This document shows positions 15,001 to 23,090 of a stretch of 47,386 bases of DNA, in pieces (the stretch's first letter is position 1; each line of letters starts with the position of its first letter). The position numbers and the translations under genes are program-made. Origin of the DNA: Muribaculaceae bacterium (GTDB lineage: Bacteria > Bacteroidota > Bacteroidia > Bacteroidales > Muribaculaceae); contig JAFQZK010000030.1 of the NCBI GenBank assembly GCA_017405965.1, forward strand, positions 1 through 47,386, read 5' to 3'. The notes under the pieces were generated by a model. That model searched no databases. It saw only the letters and a program-made list of their open reading frames with translations, and was not told the DNA's origin.

Positions 15001-15342
15001 CGCCGCTGGAACAAGCCCAGCATCATGCTGCAGTGCGAGGCCAACTACAGCAACGCGCACGGCACGCCCTGGGTTTACAGCCATGACAAGTTGGGCAAAC
15101 TTGTGGGTATGCCCGTTCCCGGCACCATGACCAGTGTGTCGTGGGAGCGCCTGCAAGACTCGTCGCTCGTGTTCGGTATTCCCATCATCGGATACCTGCT
15201 GCCCGAGGGCAATTACCTCGAGAACACGCAGTTGGAACCCGATATCAAGATCGCCAACAACCCCGAGACCGTCGTCAATGGTGAAGACTTGCAGCTCAAG
15301 GCTGCCGTCGAAGAATTGATGCGCGAGTGTGGACTGAAATAA
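12088..15342 (+). CDS. Tricorn-like S41 family protease, secreted
   Basis: The 1084-residue protein has a signal peptide (through MTAMA), then WD40/TolB-type propeller repeats with recurring SPDGxxxAF motifs over about residues 25-540. A Lys/Ala-rich linker (about 565-605, EAKKAEDKAAEAAKNSKKKG) and a second short propeller follow. A C-terminal part has His773 (ELNASHTGG), a PDZ domain (about 790-870) and an S41 core with the likely nucleophile Ser988 (ANYSNAHG). Tricorn proteases cut short peptides; in Bacteroidales they are exported and may digest peptides in the periplasm. The residue after the serine is Asn, where archaeal tricorn has Asp. The gene stands alone between terminators. Confidence 0.93.
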   Translation: MMKKILLSLAAVTAMTAMADTPLWMRFASISPDGNKIAFCYKGDIYVVPSSGGQAVQLTSQSSYETMPVWSPDGATLAFASDRKGNNDIYVMPSTGGQPKQLTRNSAAETPWTFSPDGKYIYYSAAIQDPASSMLFPSGRLTEVYRVPVEGGRSTRELGTPAEYICWNKTGDYFVYQDRKGGEDEYRKHHTSSITRDIWCYDAKTGHHTNLTNIGGEDRNPVLSPDGKTVYFLSERNGGSMNVYSMPLDHPSQLTAVTNFTVNPVRFLSIANNGTLCFTQDGELYTMRQGGQPSKVNISLWHDDSDQIQNLSFTRGATDAAVSPDGKMVAFVVRGEVFVTSVEYSTTKRITNTPAAENWVSWGADNRTLAYATERNGNWELVLATIERKDDPNFPNATLIKEEILLPSTTVERMYPCLSPDGKKLAFIEDRTYLKVYDLKTKQVTQVTDGSTWYETNGGFDYSWSPDGKWFALEFIGNQRDPYTDIGIVSANGGPITNITGSAYISEGPRWVMEGNAIMFRSNRFGMRSHASWGSQDDVFLAFVNQEALDRYNLNKEDYELLTEAEKEAKKAEDKAAEAAKNSKKKGKDAAPAAKPANKDINVELAGIEDRIVRVTPNSSNISGCMVTPDGESLYYLSAFEKGYDLWKMDLRKHETKLLNKMGGGGADIQASKDGKTLFVLGGSRMQKLTVASDKLTGIDYKADMKMDLFAEREYMFNHVDKQITKRFYNLNYHGCDWKANVETYRKFLPHINNNQDFANLLSELLGELNASHTGGRFYPTSGEATSDLGLIYDWSYTGNGLMVEEVIEGGPLAKAKSKIKPGVVLEKINGTYINLDNDYTELLNGQAGKKTLLSLFDPNTGRHWEEVVKPISKGALGDLMYKRWVKRNAHIVDSLSGGRLGYVHLESMNDASYRDIYSDVLGKYNKRDGIVIDTRFNGGGRLHEDIEVLFSGKKYFTQVIRGREACDMPSRRWNKPSIMLQCEANYSNAHGTPWVYSHDKLGKLVGMPVPGTMTSVSWERLQDSSLVFGIPIIGYLLPEGNYLENTQLEPDIKIANNPETVVNGEDLQLKAAVEELMRECGLK

Positions 15343-15354
15343 CAATTAACTCAT

Positions 15355-15383
15355 GTGGGGCCCCTTTGGGGTCCCACGTTTTT
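15355..15383 (+). terminator. Intrinsic terminator after the protease gene
   Basis: GTGGGGCCCC pairs with GGGGTCCCAC (one G-T) around TTT, with five T residues after it. It lies 13 bp after the stop codon and just before the SemiSWEET start, so read-through into that gene is possible. Confidence 0.75.
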
Positions 15384-15398
15384 AATCTTATATCTCAT

Positions 15399-15686
15399 AT
15401 GATCGATTTTATCACCAACAACTTGTCCGACATTATCGGTTACTCCGGTTCGATCTGTCTGGTACTTGGCTACATGCCCCAGGCTATCTACACCATCCGT
15501 ACCCATGACACCGACGGCATCGCCTTGCCCACCTTCCTGATGATGGGTATAGGCGGTATCTTGTTTGCCATCCAGGGCCTGATGCTTGAAAACTGGCCGC
15601 TGTTCATCACCAATGTCATCACCACCGTGTCGAGCGCCATTGTGTTCGGCATCAAGATGTACAACGACTATTGGAAGAAAAAGTAG
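15399..15686 (+). CDS. SemiSWEET sugar transporter (PQ-loop family)
   Basis: The 95-residue protein has three predicted membrane helices (about 11-29, 42-60 and 66-84) and the Tyr-Met-Pro-Gln motif at 25-28 that gives the PQ-loop family its name. SemiSWEETs dimerise and carry sugars by facilitated diffusion across the inner membrane. I choose ATG 15399; the longer frame would run through the terminator hairpin. The substrate cannot be read from the sequence. Confidence 0.88.
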   Translation: MIDFITNNLSDIIGYSGSICLVLGYMPQAIYTIRTHDTDGIALPTFLMMGIGGILFAIQGLMLENWPLFITNVITTVSSAIVFGIKMYNDYWKKK

Positions 15687-15764: not shown

Positions 15765-15795
15765 TTTGACAGGTCAAAAATAACCCTTAACTTTG
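15765..15795 (+). promoter_or_regulatory. Promoter for the TonB receptor/DUF5689/EEP operon
   Basis: TTTG at 15765-15768 and TAACTTTG at 15788-15795 are 19 bases apart, a perfect Bacteroidetes promoter. The leader to ATG 15907 is about 105 nt, AT-rich, with no obvious hairpin. Confidence 0.75.
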
Positions 15796-15906: not shown

Positions 15907-18672
15907 ATGAGACTGAAACTGTTTTTGCTATTAGCACTCTTTGCTACCCTGCCGCTGCTGGCCCAGCGAGCTGGCGTGCAGGGCGTGGTGATTGACGCCA
16001 AGAGCGGTCTGCCAGTAGTCGGCGCGACTGTCATTCTCGACGATCAAGGCGATGCAGCCACAACGGGCACCGACGGTTCGTTCATCATTGATGATGCGCA
16101 TCCCGGTCCCGATCAACTGCTTGTCCTCGCCTACGGCTACACTGACTGGGTGCTTGACGTTGTGATCGTCAACGATGTGGTAGAGAATCTGGGCACGATA
16201 CAGATTGAACCTGTATCCTTTGAGAGCGCCCAGACTCTGGAGTTCCGAAATGCCATGTCAGACATGGTTCTCACTGAGTCTCAGCTTGAGGATGAAGCGG
16301 GCAACACTCAGGAAATCGCCCTGTTGAGCGGTGCGAGTGACAACCCCTTCTATCAGGCGTCGAGTTACACCTTCAGCGCGATGCGTTTCCGCATCCGTGG
16401 CTACGAGAGTAACAAGACCGAGGTTTATATCAACAGCATCCCGTTCAACGACGGTGTGCGTTTTGCCTTCAACTACTCGATGACCGGCGGTATGAACCAA
16501 GCCTTCAGGAACAAGACTGTCGGTATGGGCTTGGAAGACAACAACTACGGTTTTGGTGGCATTGGCGGTGCCAGCAACATCAAAACCTTTGCTGCTGATT
16601 ATGCGCCCGGCACGCGACTGAGTCTTGCTTACACCAACGGCAATTACCGTTGGCGCGGCATGGTGACGCATGCCACCGGCTTGAACAAGCATGGTTGGGC
16701 CATGACACTTTCGGCCGTGGCACGTTATGCCGACGAGGGTGTCTATCCCGGCTCGTTCTACAACAGCTGGGGTTACTTCCTGTCGGTGCAGAAGGTTTTC
16801 AACCCGCAGCACTCGTTGACGCTGACCACCTTTGGCGCTCCGACGAAGCGTGCCGCCAACTCGGCCGTGTTCGAGGAGGTGTGCAGGCTGGTGGGCAGCA
16901 ACATGTACAGTCCTGACTGGGGCTGGCAAGACGGCAAGAAGCGCAACAGCAAGGTTGTTGAATCCTTCGACCCCACTGCTATCCTGAACTGGCTGTGGAA
17001 GCCCAATTCAAGCACTTCGGTCAACACTGGTTTCGCCTATCACAAGTCGTTCTACAGCAAGGCCGCCCTCAACTGGTACAAGGCCGCTGACCCGCGTCCC
17101 GACTATTACCGTTACCTGCCGTCGTATTATGACGTGAATTCCGAAGCGTTTGACCTTTACTACGACCGTTGGCACAACGGGAGCGAGTACACCCAGATTC
17201 TGTGGGACGACCTGTATCAGGTCAACCAGTTGAACAATTATCTGGCAGGTAAGGACGGCAAGGAAATGGGTTCGACCTATGTGCTCGAGAATCGTCACAG
17301 CAACCAGTCGAGCTTCACGCTGTCATCGACGCTCAACAAGCGCTTCTCCCACCAGCTGCTCATGCAGACCGGTGTCAACGCCAACTACACGATGTCGTCC
17401 TACTACAAGACGGTCAAGGACTTGTTGGGTGGCAGGTACTGGCTTGACGTTGACAACTTCAGCGAGCGCGACTTCCCCGATAATCCCGCGATGGCTCAGA
17501 ACGATATGGATAACCCCAACCGCAAGGTGGGCAAGGGTGACCGTTTCGGCTACGACTACAACATGCTGACGACGAAGGCCCAGTTGTGGCACCAGTGGGT
17601 ACTCAACCTGGCCAAGTGGGAATTGTTCGCCAGTGTCAAGGGTGACTATTTCCAGTTCCAGCGTGACGGTAAGATGCGCAATGGCCGTGCTCCCGAGAAC
17701 TCCTTGGGCAAGGGCGATGTGCATCGTTTCCTGACCTATGGCGCCAAGGGTGGTATCACCTTCAAGCTCGATGGCCGCAACAGCTTCACGGGTCATGCTT
17801 TCTATGGCACCGAGGCTCCTCGCCCCTACGATGCCTACATCTCATCGCGCACCAAGGACGATGTGATCGACCTCAAGGTGGAGAAGATCTTCTCGGCCGA
17901 CCTGAGTTATACGATGAGTTACCGCAACTTCAAGGGCGTTGTCACCGTATTCTATACCGACCAGCGCGACAACACCGAGCGCACCGCGTTCTATGATGAC
18001 CTGCACAGCACGTTCATGAACTATGCGCTCACCGGTGTTCACAAGCAGTACAAGGGCGTTGAGGTGGGCTTCAGCTACAAGCTGTCTCCCTCACTGACCA
18101 TGAGCGGTGCTGCCAACATTGCCCGCTACCAGTACAAGAACAACCCCTACGGTACCCGCAGCTACGAGAATGGTTCGGAGCCTGATGAGACCAACCAGGT
18201 TTATCTCAAGAACTACTATGTTGCCGGAACGCCCCAGGAGTGCTATATGTTAGCCTTTAACTGGGCCGGTCCCAAGCAGTGGTACGTTGAGTTGAATGGC
18301 GCATGGATGAACCGCTCCTATGTGAGCATCGCTCCCACCCGCCACGAGGTCATCAAGGACCTGTATCAGCTGGCCGACAACGAGGCGCAGCTCAGGGACA
18401 TGATTGCCGACATCGCGCAGCAAGAGAAACTGAACGAGGCCCTGGTGTTCAACGCCAGCATCGGTCACGTGATCTACATCAACCGCACGGCATCGTTCAA
18501 CATCAACCTGAACCTGAACAACATTCTTGATAACAAGAATATCCAGACGGGAGGTTACCAGCAGGGTCGTACCGACACCAAGGACTATACCAACACGTCG
18601 ACCAAGTTCCCCAACAAGTACTACTACGCTCAAGGTTTCAAGATGTTCCTGAACCTGGGTCTGAAGTTCTGA
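15907..18672 (+). CDS. TonB-dependent outer-membrane receptor
   Basis: The 921-residue protein has a signal peptide (MRLKLFLLLALFATLPLLAQ) and a carboxypeptidase-regulatory-like domain (about 23-100, GVVIDAKSGLPVVGATV). A plug domain (about 115-220) contains FRIRGYESNKTEVYINSIPF, and a beta-barrel of alternating aromatic strands ends in LGLKF with the terminal Phe typical of BamA substrates. It takes up a large or scarce ligand powered by TonB. It is not paired with a SusD gene; instead two DUF5689 lipoproteins and a secreted phosphodiesterase-like enzyme follow in tight order, which points to a phosphodiester or nucleic-acid-like substrate. That last step is inference. Confidence 0.92.
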   Translation: MRLKLFLLLALFATLPLLAQRAGVQGVVIDAKSGLPVVGATVILDDQGDAATTGTDGSFIIDDAHPGPDQLLVLAYGYTDWVLDVVIVNDVVENLGTIQIEPVSFESAQTLEFRNAMSDMVLTESQLEDEAGNTQEIALLSGASDNPFYQASSYTFSAMRFRIRGYESNKTEVYINSIPFNDGVRFAFNYSMTGGMNQAFRNKTVGMGLEDNNYGFGGIGGASNIKTFAADYAPGTRLSLAYTNGNYRWRGMVTHATGLNKHGWAMTLSAVARYADEGVYPGSFYNSWGYFLSVQKVFNPQHSLTLTTFGAPTKRAANSAVFEEVCRLVGSNMYSPDWGWQDGKKRNSKVVESFDPTAILNWLWKPNSSTSVNTGFAYHKSFYSKAALNWYKAADPRPDYYRYLPSYYDVNSEAFDLYYDRWHNGSEYTQILWDDLYQVNQLNNYLAGKDGKEMGSTYVLENRHSNQSSFTLSSTLNKRFSHQLLMQTGVNANYTMSSYYKTVKDLLGGRYWLDVDNFSERDFPDNPAMAQNDMDNPNRKVGKGDRFGYDYNMLTTKAQLWHQWVLNLAKWELFASVKGDYFQFQRDGKMRNGRAPENSLGKGDVHRFLTYGAKGGITFKLDGRNSFTGHAFYGTEAPRPYDAYISSRTKDDVIDLKVEKIFSADLSYTMSYRNFKGVVTVFYTDQRDNTERTAFYDDLHSTFMNYALTGVHKQYKGVEVGFSYKLSPSLTMSGAANIARYQYKNNPYGTRSYENGSEPDETNQVYLKNYYVAGTPQECYMLAFNWAGPKQWYVELNGAWMNRSYVSIAPTRHEVIKDLYQLADNEAQLRDMIADIAQQEKLNEALVFNASIGHVIYINRTASFNINLNLNNILDNKNIQTGGYQQGRTDTKDYTNTSTKFPNKYYYAQGFKMFLNLGLKF

Positions 18673-18717
18673 TGTGCAAGAAATAGATATTAACTAAGAC
18701 AATAAAAATCATACAAT

Positions 18718-19545
18718 ATGAAACGTTTTAATTTCTATCTGAGCTTGGTGCTCCTGTTGGCATTGGCCACGGCTTGCAATGATAAGTTTGACGACCAGGA
18801 TCTGAAAACCCCAGTCGCCAAGCACACTCCCAATATGACCATTGCCGATTTCAAGGCCAAGTACTGGCAAGATGCTGTCAATTACATCGACACCGTCAAG
18901 GAGGACATCGTCATCCACGGTTGGGTGACCAGTACCGATGTGAGCGGCAATATCTACAAGAACCTGTACATCTATGACGGCACCGCTGCTCTGTCGATAT
19001 CCATCAACCAGAACAGCCTGTGCAACAAATACCGCATCGGTCAGGAACTCGTTCTGCCGTTGAAGGACTATTATGTCGGTAAATATAATGGCCAGCAGCA
19101 GTTGGGCTATCCGGCATGGTATCAAAAGGGCCGCACGTGGGAAGCCACGTTCCTGCCCCAAGCCATGTGGGAGGATATGGTCGAACTCAACGGCCTGCCT
19201 GATCCCTCCAAGGTAGAGCCCCTCGAAGTGAGGTTGGGCGACTTCTGCGAAGACTTCTCAACCGCGACATTGTTGAAATACCAGGGCCGCCTGGTGCGCA
19301 TCAATGGTGTTGAGTTTGATGGTGCCGGAGAGCTGACTTTCTCGGACAAAGACGCTTCCAGCAATCGCACTATCCATGACGATTCAGGTAAGACATTGAC
19401 ATTGCGCAACAGCAATTATGCCGACTTTCGCGCTGTTACCCTGCCAACCGGCAAGGTGGACATCATCGGTTTGCTCGGTTCCTATTCCAGCAACACCTGG
19501 CAGCTCTACCTGCGCACGATTGACGATGTGAAACCCGCCAATTAA
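18718..19545 (+). CDS. DUF5689 lipoprotein, single domain
   Basis: A lipoprotein signal ends at Cys20 (LATAC). Residues about 36-270 form one DUF5689 region, recognised by NMTIADFKAKYWQ, the VIHGWVTSTDVSGNIYKNLYI strand pair and DGTAALSISINQ, an OB-fold-like pattern. It lies 45 bp after the receptor gene and 32 bp before its paralogue, so the three are one operon. The two lipoproteins share most of this block. A surface substrate-binding role beside the receptor, comparable with SusD or SusE, is inferred from position only. Confidence 0.85.
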   Translation: MKRFNFYLSLVLLLALATACNDKFDDQDLKTPVAKHTPNMTIADFKAKYWQDAVNYIDTVKEDIVIHGWVTSTDVSGNIYKNLYIYDGTAALSISINQNSLCNKYRIGQELVLPLKDYYVGKYNGQQQLGYPAWYQKGRTWEATFLPQAMWEDMVELNGLPDPSKVEPLEVRLGDFCEDFSTATLLKYQGRLVRINGVEFDGAGELTFSDKDASSNRTIHDDSGKTLTLRNSNYADFRAVTLPTGKVDIIGLLGSYSSNTWQLYLRTIDDVKPAN

Positions 19546-19577
19546 TTTGAGAATCAAGCAAAAAACAGAATAACGAT

Positions 19578-21830
19578 ATGAAAAGCATTAAATATTTTCT
19601 TGGACTGATGCTACTGCTGGTTCTCGTGACGTCATGTCATGAAGAGTTTGACCAGCCGCCAGTTTACATTCCTGTTGCCGATGCTGTCCCGAATATGACC
19701 ATCGCCGAGTTCAAGGCAAAACATTGGCAGGAAAGTGCCAACTATGTGGACACCGTGACCGAGGATGAGGTCATTCATGGCTGGGTGACTGCAAACGATA
19801 TCAGCAACAACATCTATAAGACCGTTTATATCAGTGACGGAACTGCAGGCCTGTCGATTTCCATTTCCCAGAACGAACTTTACAAGAAGTTCCGCGTGGG
19901 CCAGGAGGTCGTCCTTCCCATGAAGGGCCACTATGTGGGCAAGGCCACCGGCCAATTGAATGTGGCTGCTCCTTACTATTATGTCAACAGGAATAGCGGT
20001 GACAGCACGCTGGAATGTCTCAACATGTCGGCCGCCGAGATGGAATCGCTGATTCAGTACAACCGAATGCCCGACGTGAGCAAGGTGGATACCGTTGACG
20101 TCGAGATCAGTGAATTCCAAAACAAGTTTGACTCCGAGACCCTGCGCAAGTATCAGGGCCTGCTCGTGCGCATCAAGAACGTGGAATTTGTGGAGGGCGA
20201 CGGCCGCACCCCTTATGCCGAAGACGGCAGTTCCAACACGAACCGCACGATTATGGACATGAGCCGCAACAAGCTCATTGTCCGCAACAGCCGCAGTGCC
20301 GACTTCGCCACCACCCCGCTGCCGCTTGGCCGCTATGATGTCGTGGGTATCCTCGGTTTCTACCAGACTAGCTCCAGCACCTGGCAGTTCTACTTGCGCA
20401 CCATCGAGGACGTGATGGGCGAAGGCAAGAAGGGAACCATCACTCTGCCGTATTCGGTAGCCGATGCTATCGAGAATCAGAATACCGGCGCCATCGGCTG
20501 GATTGAGGGTTATATCGTGGGTGCCGTTGCACCTGAGAAGACCACCGTGAGCAGCAATGCCGACATCGAGTGGAGTGCACCCACTCAGCTCGATAATACC
20601 ATCGTGATTGCCGATGATCCAGAGTGCAAGGACTACACCAAGTGCATTGTCGTGCCGCTGCCGCAAGGTTCGCCCTTCCGCACTGATGCCAACCTGGCAG
20701 ATAATCCTGTGGCTCACAAGGCCCATCTGTTCGTATATGGTCAGCCTGGTACCTACATGGGCATGCCCGGCCTCCTCGGAAACACCGGTTCGGTGGAAGA
20801 GTATCTGCTGGATGTTGCTCTGGAGAAGATGGAAGAGACCTTTAACAATGGCTCAATACCTCGTTCCTGGACCAATGTGGTCATTGGCGGCGACACGCGA
20901 TGGGGTACTTATTCTTACACCAGCGGTGGCAAGCCCATCGTATGTGCCCAGATCAGGTATACCAGTACGCCTAACCAGGATGCCGAGTCGTGGCTGATCA
21001 CTCCGAGGTTAAATATCAAGAAAGCCAAGAGCAAGATCTTCACCTTCACCTCCGAGGTAAACAGCACGGGTAATAACCGACTCGAGGTTTATCTGCTCAA
21101 TTCCAAGGATCCCGTGACAGCCACTGTGAAAGTGAAGCTGAATCCCATTCTCCCGCCCAGACCTGCCAGCAACTATAGCGCTTGGACCTCGTCAGGTGAC
21201 ATCGACTTGAGCGAGTGGGCCGACGGTGAATACTACATCGGCTTCTGCTACAAGGCGCCTGCAGGCGCAACCCAGACGACATGGTGCATCGACGATGTGA
21301 CCTTCGGCATGGGTAAGGTTGATGTTGCGAACCGCGCCGACTTCGAGACGATGGGTGATGCCACGGGTCAGTACGGCACCTTCACCTCGGAGAAGGGTTG
21401 GGTGGCAAACAACTGCTGCCTGTTCCAGGGTGGTGCTGATGAGCTCAATCCCACCTTCCCGTTCATCGGCTTCATGACCGAGAATCCCGGCATCTATGCC
21501 AAGGCTCCGACGCTGAACGGTAAGACGACCAGCGTGGGTACCATCGTGTCGCCTGTTATCAAGGGCGGCATGAAGAAGCTGGCATTCAGCTACGGTGCAG
21601 CGATGTCTGACAAGGTGCTGTCGTTCCGCATCGATGTGAAGCAGAACGGCAATGTGGTCAAGTCATGGACCGAAACGAGAAACAATGTGGCCCAGAAGAC
21701 GGCCTACGACTTCTCGGCAACCTGTGACATCAGCGGTGACTTCACGATTGAGATCACCAACCTGTGCCCGTCCAACTCAAAGAGTAACAAGGACCGTGTA
21801 TCCATCTGGAATCTTGTTTGGGATAATTAA
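19578..21830 (+). CDS. DUF5689 lipoprotein with DUF6359-like and choice-of-anchor-like domains
   Basis: The lipobox is LVTSC (Cys20). Domain order in 750 residues: DUF5689 (about 35-285, NMTIAEFKAKHWQ and IHGWVTANDISNNIYK); a second OB-like unit resembling DUF6359 (about 290-415, PYSVADAIENQNTGAIGWIEGYIVG); a jelly-roll of the choice-of-anchor type (about 420-575, ESWLITPRLNIKKAKSK); and another such domain (about 580-750). Carbohydrate- or polymer-binding jelly-rolls on a lipoprotein suggest a long surface-exposed capture protein. It is the product of a tandem duplication of the preceding gene plus domain gain. Confidence 0.82.
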   Translation: MKSIKYFLGLMLLLVLVTSCHEEFDQPPVYIPVADAVPNMTIAEFKAKHWQESANYVDTVTEDEVIHGWVTANDISNNIYKTVYISDGTAGLSISISQNELYKKFRVGQEVVLPMKGHYVGKATGQLNVAAPYYYVNRNSGDSTLECLNMSAAEMESLIQYNRMPDVSKVDTVDVEISEFQNKFDSETLRKYQGLLVRIKNVEFVEGDGRTPYAEDGSSNTNRTIMDMSRNKLIVRNSRSADFATTPLPLGRYDVVGILGFYQTSSSTWQFYLRTIEDVMGEGKKGTITLPYSVADAIENQNTGAIGWIEGYIVGAVAPEKTTVSSNADIEWSAPTQLDNTIVIADDPECKDYTKCIVVPLPQGSPFRTDANLADNPVAHKAHLFVYGQPGTYMGMPGLLGNTGSVEEYLLDVALEKMEETFNNGSIPRSWTNVVIGGDTRWGTYSYTSGGKPIVCAQIRYTSTPNQDAESWLITPRLNIKKAKSKIFTFTSEVNSTGNNRLEVYLLNSKDPVTATVKVKLNPILPPRPASNYSAWTSSGDIDLSEWADGEYYIGFCYKAPAGATQTTWCIDDVTFGMGKVDVANRADFETMGDATGQYGTFTSEKGWVANNCCLFQGGADELNPTFPFIGFMTENPGIYAKAPTLNGKTTSVGTIVSPVIKGGMKKLAFSYGAAMSDKVLSFRIDVKQNGNVVKSWTETRNNVAQKTAYDFSATCDISGDFTIEITNLCPSNSKSNKDRVSIWNLVWDN

Positions 21831-21848
21831 TAATCAAGTTTTTCAGAC

Positions 21849-21895
21849 CTCAGTTTTCAGTTGTCAGCTTCATCGGCTTTCAACTGAAAACTGAG
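21849..21895. repeat. Perfect 15-bp inverted repeat between lipoprotein and nuclease genes
   Basis: CTCAGTTTTCAGTTG (21849-21863) and CAACTGAAAACTGAG (21881-21895) are exact complements around a 17-nt loop, and the right arm continues as AACTGAG heptamers. It could attenuate or stabilise the transcript between the two genes. No T run follows. Confidence 0.7.
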
Positions 21896-21924
21896 AACTG
21901 AGAATCCGAAAATCAAAAATTGAT

Positions 21925-23016
21925 ATGATGAAGAAATTGTTATTACTGGCTCTGGCATGGATGGCAATCCTGCCGATGCTGGCCCAAGACCAGGAAGAGC
22001 AGCAACAATTGGAACGCCGCTACACAATGTATGGCGTGATGTTCTATAACCTGGAGAACCTGTTCGACACCATCAACAACAATGGCGTGTATGACAAGGA
22101 GTACTCTCCCGATGGCCCTCGTCAATGGAACGGCACCAAGTACTGGCAGAAACAGCACAACATGGCCTATGCCATCAGCCAGATGGAAGTGAAGGGCTCG
22201 CCTGCCGAAGGTCCCGTCATCATCGGCGTGAGTGAGATCGAGAACATCACCGTGCTTCAGGATCTCGTGCGCCAGCCCGAACTCAAGGACCGCCGCTACC
22301 AGATTGTTCACCACGATAGTCCTGACCGCCGTGGTGTGGACGTCGGCTTGTTGTACAATCCTCGTTTCTTCAAGGTGCTGAATGTCACTAACCAGCGCAT
22401 CAACAAGTACCTGCCCGAGGATAGGAGAGAAGATTTCCGCTCCCGCGACCAGCTCTGTGTCACCGGTATGCTTGCCGGTGAAAAGGTCTCGGTCCTCGTC
22501 AACCACTGGCCCTCGCGACTGGGTGGTGAGGAAGCATCAAGCGAATTGCGTGAGGCCGCCGGCCGCATGGCACGCGCGACGATCGACTCGCTGCTGCTCG
22601 ATGATCCCAATCAGGGCATCATCTTCATGGGCGACTTGAACGACGACCCGCAGAACAGGAGTTGCAGCGAAGCACTGGGTGCCAAGAAGGAGATCAAGGA
22701 CTGCACCGAGCCTGGTTCGTGCTTCAATCCCTGGTGGAACATCCTGAACAAGGGTATCGGTACGCTGGGTTACAAGGGCAACTGGAACCTGTTCGACCAG
22801 ATCATCTTCACCAACTACTTCCTGCGCAACTACGACAGCAAGGACAAGCCCACCTTGACCTTCGCCCGCGCCGAGGTGCTGAACCGCAAGTTCCTGCGTG
22901 GCGACGAGGGTGACCGTCAGGGCTATCCCCTGCGCACTTTCTCGGCAGGTATCTTCATGAACGGTTACAGTGACCACTTCCCCACGATGATTTACCTGGT
23001 GAAAGAAGTCAAGTAA
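21925..23016 (+). CDS. Secreted endonuclease/exonuclease/phosphatase (EEP) family enzyme
   Basis: EEP enzymes cut phosphodiester or phosphomonoester bonds of DNA, RNA, inositol phosphates or lipids. The 363-residue protein has a signal peptide (MMKKLLLLALAWMAILPMLA) and a full active site: FYNLENLFD (Asn42, Glu44), the metal-binding Glu in VSEIEN, NHWPSR, GDLNDDP and a final SDHFP. It is the last gene of the receptor/DUF5689 operon, 94 bp after the lipoprotein gene with a hairpin between. The expected place of action is the periplasm or the surface. Whether it is a nuclease or another phosphoesterase cannot be told from sequence alone. Confidence 0.9.
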   Translation: MMKKLLLLALAWMAILPMLAQDQEEQQQLERRYTMYGVMFYNLENLFDTINNNGVYDKEYSPDGPRQWNGTKYWQKQHNMAYAISQMEVKGSPAEGPVIIGVSEIENITVLQDLVRQPELKDRRYQIVHHDSPDRRGVDVGLLYNPRFFKVLNVTNQRINKYLPEDRREDFRSRDQLCVTGMLAGEKVSVLVNHWPSRLGGEEASSELREAAGRMARATIDSLLLDDPNQGIIFMGDLNDDPQNRSCSEALGAKKEIKDCTEPGSCFNPWWNILNKGIGTLGYKGNWNLFDQIIFTNYFLRNYDSKDKPTLTFARAEVLNRKFLRGDEGDRQGYPLRTFSAGIFMNGYSDHFPTMIYLVKEVK

Positions 23017-23046
23017 TCGACGCGTTACTGTAAAAAAACTCACATG

Positions 23047-23090
23047 ATCGCTCCATAACTCCTGGTTTAGGGTTATGGAGCGATTTTTTT
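23047..23090 (+). terminator. Strong intrinsic terminator ending the receptor operon
   Basis: ATCGCTCCATAAC (23047-23059) and GTTATGGAGCGAT (23072-23084) pair over 13 bases and run straight into seven T residues. Confidence 0.88.

Follow-up and report, generated by a model that had tools for sequence, protein, structure and literature searches.

Organization of the locus

The DNA analyzed here, hereafter the window, is a stretch of 47,386 nucleotides from a Muribaculaceae bacterium (assembly GCA_017405965.1, contig JAFQZK010000030.1), in which positions 15907-23016 of the + strand harbor the genes of an outer-membrane receptor (REC), two DUF5689 lipoproteins (A and B) and an EEP-family enzyme. 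The features of this locus are the following:

15765-15795, + strand: Bacteroides-type promoter-like site TTTG-N19-TAACTTTG, ~110 bp before REC
15907-18672, + strand: REC, outer-membrane receptor (signal peptide, CarboxypepD_reg, weak plug match, 22 strands on the model)
18718-19545, + strand: DUF5689 lipoprotein A (Pfam; two OB folds in the model)
19578-21830, + strand: DUF5689 lipoprotein B (DUF5689, DUF6359, choice-of-anchor J)
21840-21904, + strand: long RNA hairpin in the gap that precedes EEP (folding of the 94-nt gap)
21925-23016, + strand: EEP-family enzyme, PF19580 (signal peptide, conserved active-site motifs)
23046-23085, + strand: intrinsic terminator, 16-pair stem and T-run (terminator scan, folding)

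An original prediction, made from the letters of the sequence, had described four tightly spaced genes with one promoter and one strong terminator, and this layout was confirmed. The genes are separated by 45 nt (REC-A), 32 nt (A-B) and 94 nt (B-EEP). The pattern TTTG-N19-TAACTTTG, which we take to be the Bacteroides-type promoter consensus, presented eight matches in the window versus 0.55 expected, and a sigma-70 scan of the window was at chance level (7 versus 5.1 expected). The terminator scan of the window was, overall, also at chance level (6 versus 6.9 expected), and the stem at 23046-23085 was the longest that it returned (folding z -4.7). The gap preceding the EEP gene folds into a stable hairpin (-35 kcal/mol, z -7.2), so that this gene may be controlled separately from those upstream. 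The hairpin contains a AACTGAAAACTGAG-type inverted repeat, and no second site with this pattern was found within the window.

Kinship with a gene pair required for transformation

The REC product matched CarboxypepD_reg in Pfam, while Plug stayed below its cut-off (16 versus 23.9 bits), and its predicted model displayed 22 barrel strands in a manual count. None of the four genes matched the SusD family (Pfam), in line with the predicted TonB-dependent receptor without SusD, nor the SusC family (Pfam and NCBIfam), which places the locus outside the SusC/SusD importers. It resembles them in combining a TonB-type barrel with a surface lipoprotein partner, and differs in that the lipoprotein model is of the OB-fold type. 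Sequence-only PDB searches revealed no useful relative for the lipoproteins, the EEP enzyme or REC, which gave CarboxypepD-like matches only.

The closest functional lead came from Riemerella anatipestifer. The receptor of strain CCUG25054 (NZ_QXHU01000005.1, locus L163) aligned with REC over the full length (28% identity, 965 columns, E 5e-111), and the window also presents a DUF5689 lipoprotein gene directly downstream of the receptor. As described by Huang 2021 (PMC8459023), the unmarked deletion of either RA0C_RS04915, a CarboxypepD_reg outer-membrane protein, or RA0C_RS04920, which contains DUF5689 and DUF5017, brought transformation of R. anatipestifer ATCC 11845 below the detection limit. 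The DNA used in these assays was a polymerase chain reaction (PCR) product with two ~620-bp flanks and a marker, which indicates that Riemerella takes in DNA in a state suitable for recombination. The same study reports RS04915 homologues only in Flavobacteriaceae and leaves the nuclease step of DNA uptake unknown; its main text names RS04910 once, noting that transcription of this upstream gene did not change. In addition, a tonBA mutant of R. anatipestifer is described with lowered transformation and no iron defect (PMC8383284).

In L163, for which gene identities follow the Pfam names of the close relative L144, the genes of ComEC, a 145-aa protein, a carboxylase and EEP run one way, and those of the receptor and DUF5689 run the opposite way; EEP is therefore divergent from the pair, and comEC is the third gene beyond it. 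Judging from tag numbers across strains, RA0C_RS04910 should be this L163-type EEP. The window shares the receptor followed directly by a DUF5689 lipoprotein, with EEP nearby, but differs from R. anatipestifer in having two lipoproteins, the second with DUF6359, an EEP gene downstream on the same strand, and a distant comEC. At 15664-21106 of L163, a large open reading frame (ORF) with a Cas9-like start, and after it two small CRISPR-type ORFs, could be read adjoining the DNA-uptake locus.

The lipoproteins and the nuclease families

Lipoprotein A matched DUF5689 alone (193 bits) in Pfam, and B matched DUF5689 (176 bits) and DUF6359 (80 bits), as well as choice-of-anchor J in NCBIfam (70.6 bits). 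Lipoboxes were read directly from both sequences (..ATAC in A and ..VTSC in B), with acidic residues following, and by the rules of surface export signals both proteins would be displayed on the surface. The AlphaFold model of A consists of two OB folds, and its best structural matches bind nucleic acid; the predicted OB-fold-like nature of the lipoproteins is thus supported for A, the one to which the model applies. At the level of sequence, no OB family was found in a Pfam search of 36 DUF5689 entries, and OB matches below cut-off occurred in the DUF5689 loci L067 and L086. The fold, together with the fusions described below, suggests that A and B may bind DNA through tandem OB folds. Bulk charge speaks against DNA binding by the lipoproteins, which are acidic in three sets (median isoelectric point, pI, of 4.8-5.1, versus 5.5 for other exported-like ORFs). 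As for the receptor, its pI is 6.1 in the window, and a basic median was confined to the Riemerella set (8.6).

The EEP product matched PF19580 with 344 bits (cut-off 27), and residues N42, E106, H194, D237, N239, D350 and H351, which we take to be catalytic, were invariant in 12/12 aligned family members, bearing out the full active site that had been predicted. The description of this enzyme as secreted was too strong. Its N-terminus resembles an ordinary signal peptide, Pfam detected no type IX tail in this protein of the window, and lipobox-like starts were rare in the family (3 of 136 ORFs, by a crude pattern that caught 126 of 188 DUF5689 ORFs); for these reasons, the enzyme is probably periplasmic, and it would more likely cut there than outside the cell before import. 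At an E value of 0.01, the window EEP had no match among the NCBIfam models, including that of the ExeM/NucH DNases (NF033681, membership cut-off 300 bits), which was matched below cut-off by eight of the 12 family members (21.8 bits for the L163 EEP); one of the 12 matched exonuclease III. A DNase activity is suggested by these similarities. The EEP proteins are basic around Riemerella (median pI 9.0) and in other Bacteroidia (8.2), with a median of 6.5 in the order of the window and 5.7 for the window protein.

DUF5689 was found fused to nucleases of the EEP, PLD and Endonuclease I types. Among six loci with weak DUF5689 matches, the domain was fused to an EEP domain in three and to PLD domains in two, all five fusions bearing type IX tails, and L138 was unfused; the DUF5689 proteins of L070 and L085 also matched a PLD nuclease region. 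One fusion (L139) joins LTD, DUF5689, EEP and a type IX tail, a parallel to the logic of the secreted ExeM/NucH DNases, in which an OB fold is presumably combined with EEP. These DNases are single secreted proteins, whereas the parts in the window are separate and joined to a receptor. Endonuclease I homologues occurred in 8/164 loci, being immediately upstream of REC in L067 and L072, where the EEP gene lies further away, downstream on the operon strand in L092, L098 and L100, behind EEP in L073, and near EEP in L080 and L135.

Distribution and gene order in Bacteroidota

DUF5689 was detected in 180/392 genomes of the phylum and in 172/295 of the order. Three sets of neighborhoods were compared: 80 chosen from DUF5689 matches (74 strong and six weak), 20 chosen from receptor matches in the family of Riemerella, and 64 comprising all loci with a Riemerella-type receptor in one named scan, which are mostly from Chryseobacterium and not independent. 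REC was found beside DUF5689, i.e., within two ORFs, in 40/40 strong loci of the window's order, 31/34 other strong loci, 18/20 and 64/64 of the additional sets, and 0/6 weak loci. An EEP gene was counted as near when it lay no more than two ORFs away in divergent or upstream position, or no more than four away on the downstream side; the corresponding figures were 25/40, 25/34, 17/20 and 61/64, or 128/158 with the weak loci left out. Receptor-DUF5689 pairs recur in several Bacteroidota orders. The EEP gene is mostly divergent (121 divergent pairs, median gap 199 nt); in the 40 loci of the window's order it was divergent in 19, downstream as in the window in two, upstream on the same strand in four and missing in 15, three of which were flagged at a contig edge.

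Of 184 receptor-model matches in the fetched loci, 147 exceeded 800 bits, 14 were below 60 and 23 lay between. REC was present in 118/120 genomes of the Riemerella family and, at E 1e-60, in 55/119 genomes of the window's order, 54 of which also carry DUF5689 (E <1e-20), the exception being G407. Another genome, G508, has a strong DUF5689 match and is absent from the REC list; since its locus L085 does contain REC, it was probably left out of the REC search sample. Three loci (L105, L109 and L121) presented a strong DUF5689 lipoprotein with REC missing from the 20 kb retrieved, and five Flavobacterium loci (L217, L218, L221, L222 and L226) had an additional ORF of ~200 aa between REC and DUF5689.

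A plasmid collection yielded six matching records, and layouts were noted for four, the two weakest being left out. The order was REC-DUF5689-EEP in Bacteroides finegoldii (L244), EEP-EEP-REC-DUF5689/DUF6359/LTD-DUF5689/Endonuclease I in Flammeovirga, and REC-DUF5689 in Prevotella, where EEP was unmatched in the scanned stretch. Aureibacter tunicatorum pAT2 (NZ_AP025307.1), with REC-DUF5689-DUF5689-Endonuclease I-EEP-EEP, has its receptor, both DUF5689 genes and EEP all on the same strand, as in the window, and differs by a gene for Endonuclease I and by another annotated as EEP; the record reports no function. L244 shares with L064, from the order of the window, a layout of two ORFs (fimbrillin-family in L244), REC, DUF5689 and EEP. 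The L244 record (NZ_OY725948.1) is a 27-kb circular molecule called a plasmid, with the fimbrillin-family genes upstream.

Upstream of the window locus, a SemiSWEET-like PQ-loop gene was noted at 15327-15686. In its longest ORF it shares sequence with the end of the gene immediately before it, a large one for a Tricorn-like S41 peptidase.

Proposed function and competing explanations

Taken together, the locus is best explained as a TonB-type outer-membrane DNA import system with its own, probably periplasmic, nuclease, to which we assign a probability of about 0.7. The substrate is very probably nucleic acid, and import most likely goes through the receptor. Capture, cutting and import of nucleic acids had been anticipated by the original prediction, and they are now well supported by homology to the transformation-essential pair, by three unrelated nuclease families and by the tandem OB model. 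In the proposed mechanism, the two surface lipoproteins would hold DNA by their tandem OB folds, on or beside the 22-strand barrel next to which they are encoded; the barrel, driven by TonB, would pass DNA to the periplasm, as suggested by the abolished transformation of the Riemerella deletion mutants; and the signal-peptide-bearing EEP would nick or degrade the incoming DNA. ComEC and DprA, both present in the genome of the window, could then carry one strand onward to the cytoplasm; otherwise, the DNA would serve as food. The genes of ComEC and DprA are widespread and carry little weight, and the putative HHH protein of Riemerella was unmatched, so that the imported DNA may be destined for transformation, for food or for both uses. 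Natural transformation in the organism of the window is put forward tentatively, at somewhat less than even odds.

Several observations weigh against this DNA import system. The model of REC is weak (pLDDT 68, plug unresolved), the Foldseek TM-scores of A are low (0.20-0.34 by query length), and the lipoproteins of the window are acidic (pI 4.9), which is unhelpful for DNA binding. Within the family of the window, the sole informative relative (L082) lacks EEP throughout the 19.5 kb of its locus, and a genome search found neither receptor nor DUF5689 in G416; another relative, L083, ends with its contig 715 bp past the second lipoprotein gene and, being cut there, says little on EEP. A counterpart of the putative periplasmic HHH protein of Riemerella was not found in the window genome, which is 96% complete, although an empty search proves little; the 445-aa L239 protein, taken as RA0C_RS02645, gave no match as query. 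comEC lies far from the window locus and was near in only 4/164 loci, all from the genus of Riemerella, two of them (L148 and L163) apparently on the same contig. Finally, Flavobacterium johnsoniae carries the homologues, yet the published assay gave no transformation of this species (PMC8459023, PMC7965970), and the authors of the TonB study propose nutrient transport for TonBA (PMC8383284).

Two candidate markers were set aside. The HHH_3 domain (PF12836) does not discriminate competent genomes, because it occurs in 287/295 genomes of the order, with the best listed matches mostly on ORFs of ~715 aa, presumably Tex-like; the window genome has one 715-aa ORF of this kind only. DUF5689 was present in 9/25 order genomes with at most one HHH_3 match versus 163/270 others, a weak difference that ignores kinship. 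Regarding clustering with competence genes, ComF was found in eight of the 164 loci (L104, L105, L109, L113 and L115, from one family, and L087, L095 and L150) and DprA in two. Since the loci total 3.28 Mb, about one genome's worth, about one match per gene is expected, and clustering with comEC, ComF and DprA is suggestive only.

A purely nutritional system, which would capture DNA or RNA, cut it and import the fragments for phosphate or nucleosides with no transformation, is unlikely. It would fit the missing HHH counterpart, the crowding of several nucleases in one locus, which suits digestion, and the higher transformation of R. columbina without peptone or phosphate (PMC7965970). However, what was measured in Riemerella is transformation by PCR DNA, removal of phosphate lowers transformation in R. 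anatipestifer (PMC8383284), and neither a nucleosidase nor SusD was matched in the four genes (Pfam). The phosphate or nucleoside purpose that had been predicted stays conjectural. The direct uptake phenotype found in the literature is natural transformation, and its phosphate response differs between the two Riemerella species.

An indirect effect, in which the pair shapes lipopolysaccharide (LPS) or the outer membrane and the loss of transformation is secondary, is improbable. This possibility arises because the DUF5689 protein of R. anatipestifer belongs to the NCBIfam family M949_1556 (590.8 bits, cut-off 475), whose founding gene has been linked to LPS synthesis (PMC4976936), a further point unfavorable to DNA import; but a substrate other than nucleic acid leaves unexplained both the OB-fold model and the fusions and neighborhoods with three nuclease families. 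Import of a phosphodiester other than nucleic acid (head groups of phospholipids, inositol phosphates or cyclic nucleotides), in which EEP would act as a phosphatase or phosphodiesterase, draws on the breadth of the EEP superfamily and the lack of an NCBIfam match for the window EEP, and it is highly improbable in view of the DNase and exonuclease III similarities of the family and the Endonuclease I and PLD nucleases found in the same setting.

Implications for DNA uptake in Bacteroidota

The receptor-DUF5689 pair and its transformation phenotype are already known in Riemerella. No report of a conserved nuclease partner or of a Bacteroidales form was found in the open-access library searched, subscription papers and preprints being outside the scope of the search. 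For the DNA import system favored here, the proposed role of EEP would be similar to that of the entry nucleases EndA, NucA and NucM (PMC6384898), although EEP belongs to another nuclease family and its entry role is a proposal. More broadly, it is conceivable, at close to even odds, that these loci constitute a widespread, pilus-independent DNA uptake module, in which a tandem-OB lipoprotein, a TonB-driven barrel and a dedicated nuclease take double-stranded DNA through the outer membrane. In such a module, EEP would fill the nuclease step left vacant in the Riemerella model, with Endonuclease I accompanying it or taking its place at some loci.

How DNA passes the outer membrane of Bacteroidota is largely open, and a widespread operon without a named function is now linked to genes with a transformation phenotype. 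DUF5689 gains a likely role, and a nuclease candidate is offered for the step that Huang 2021 left unknown. If this is true, a TonB-type barrel would move DNA, and Bacteroidota would possess an overlooked route of gene exchange.

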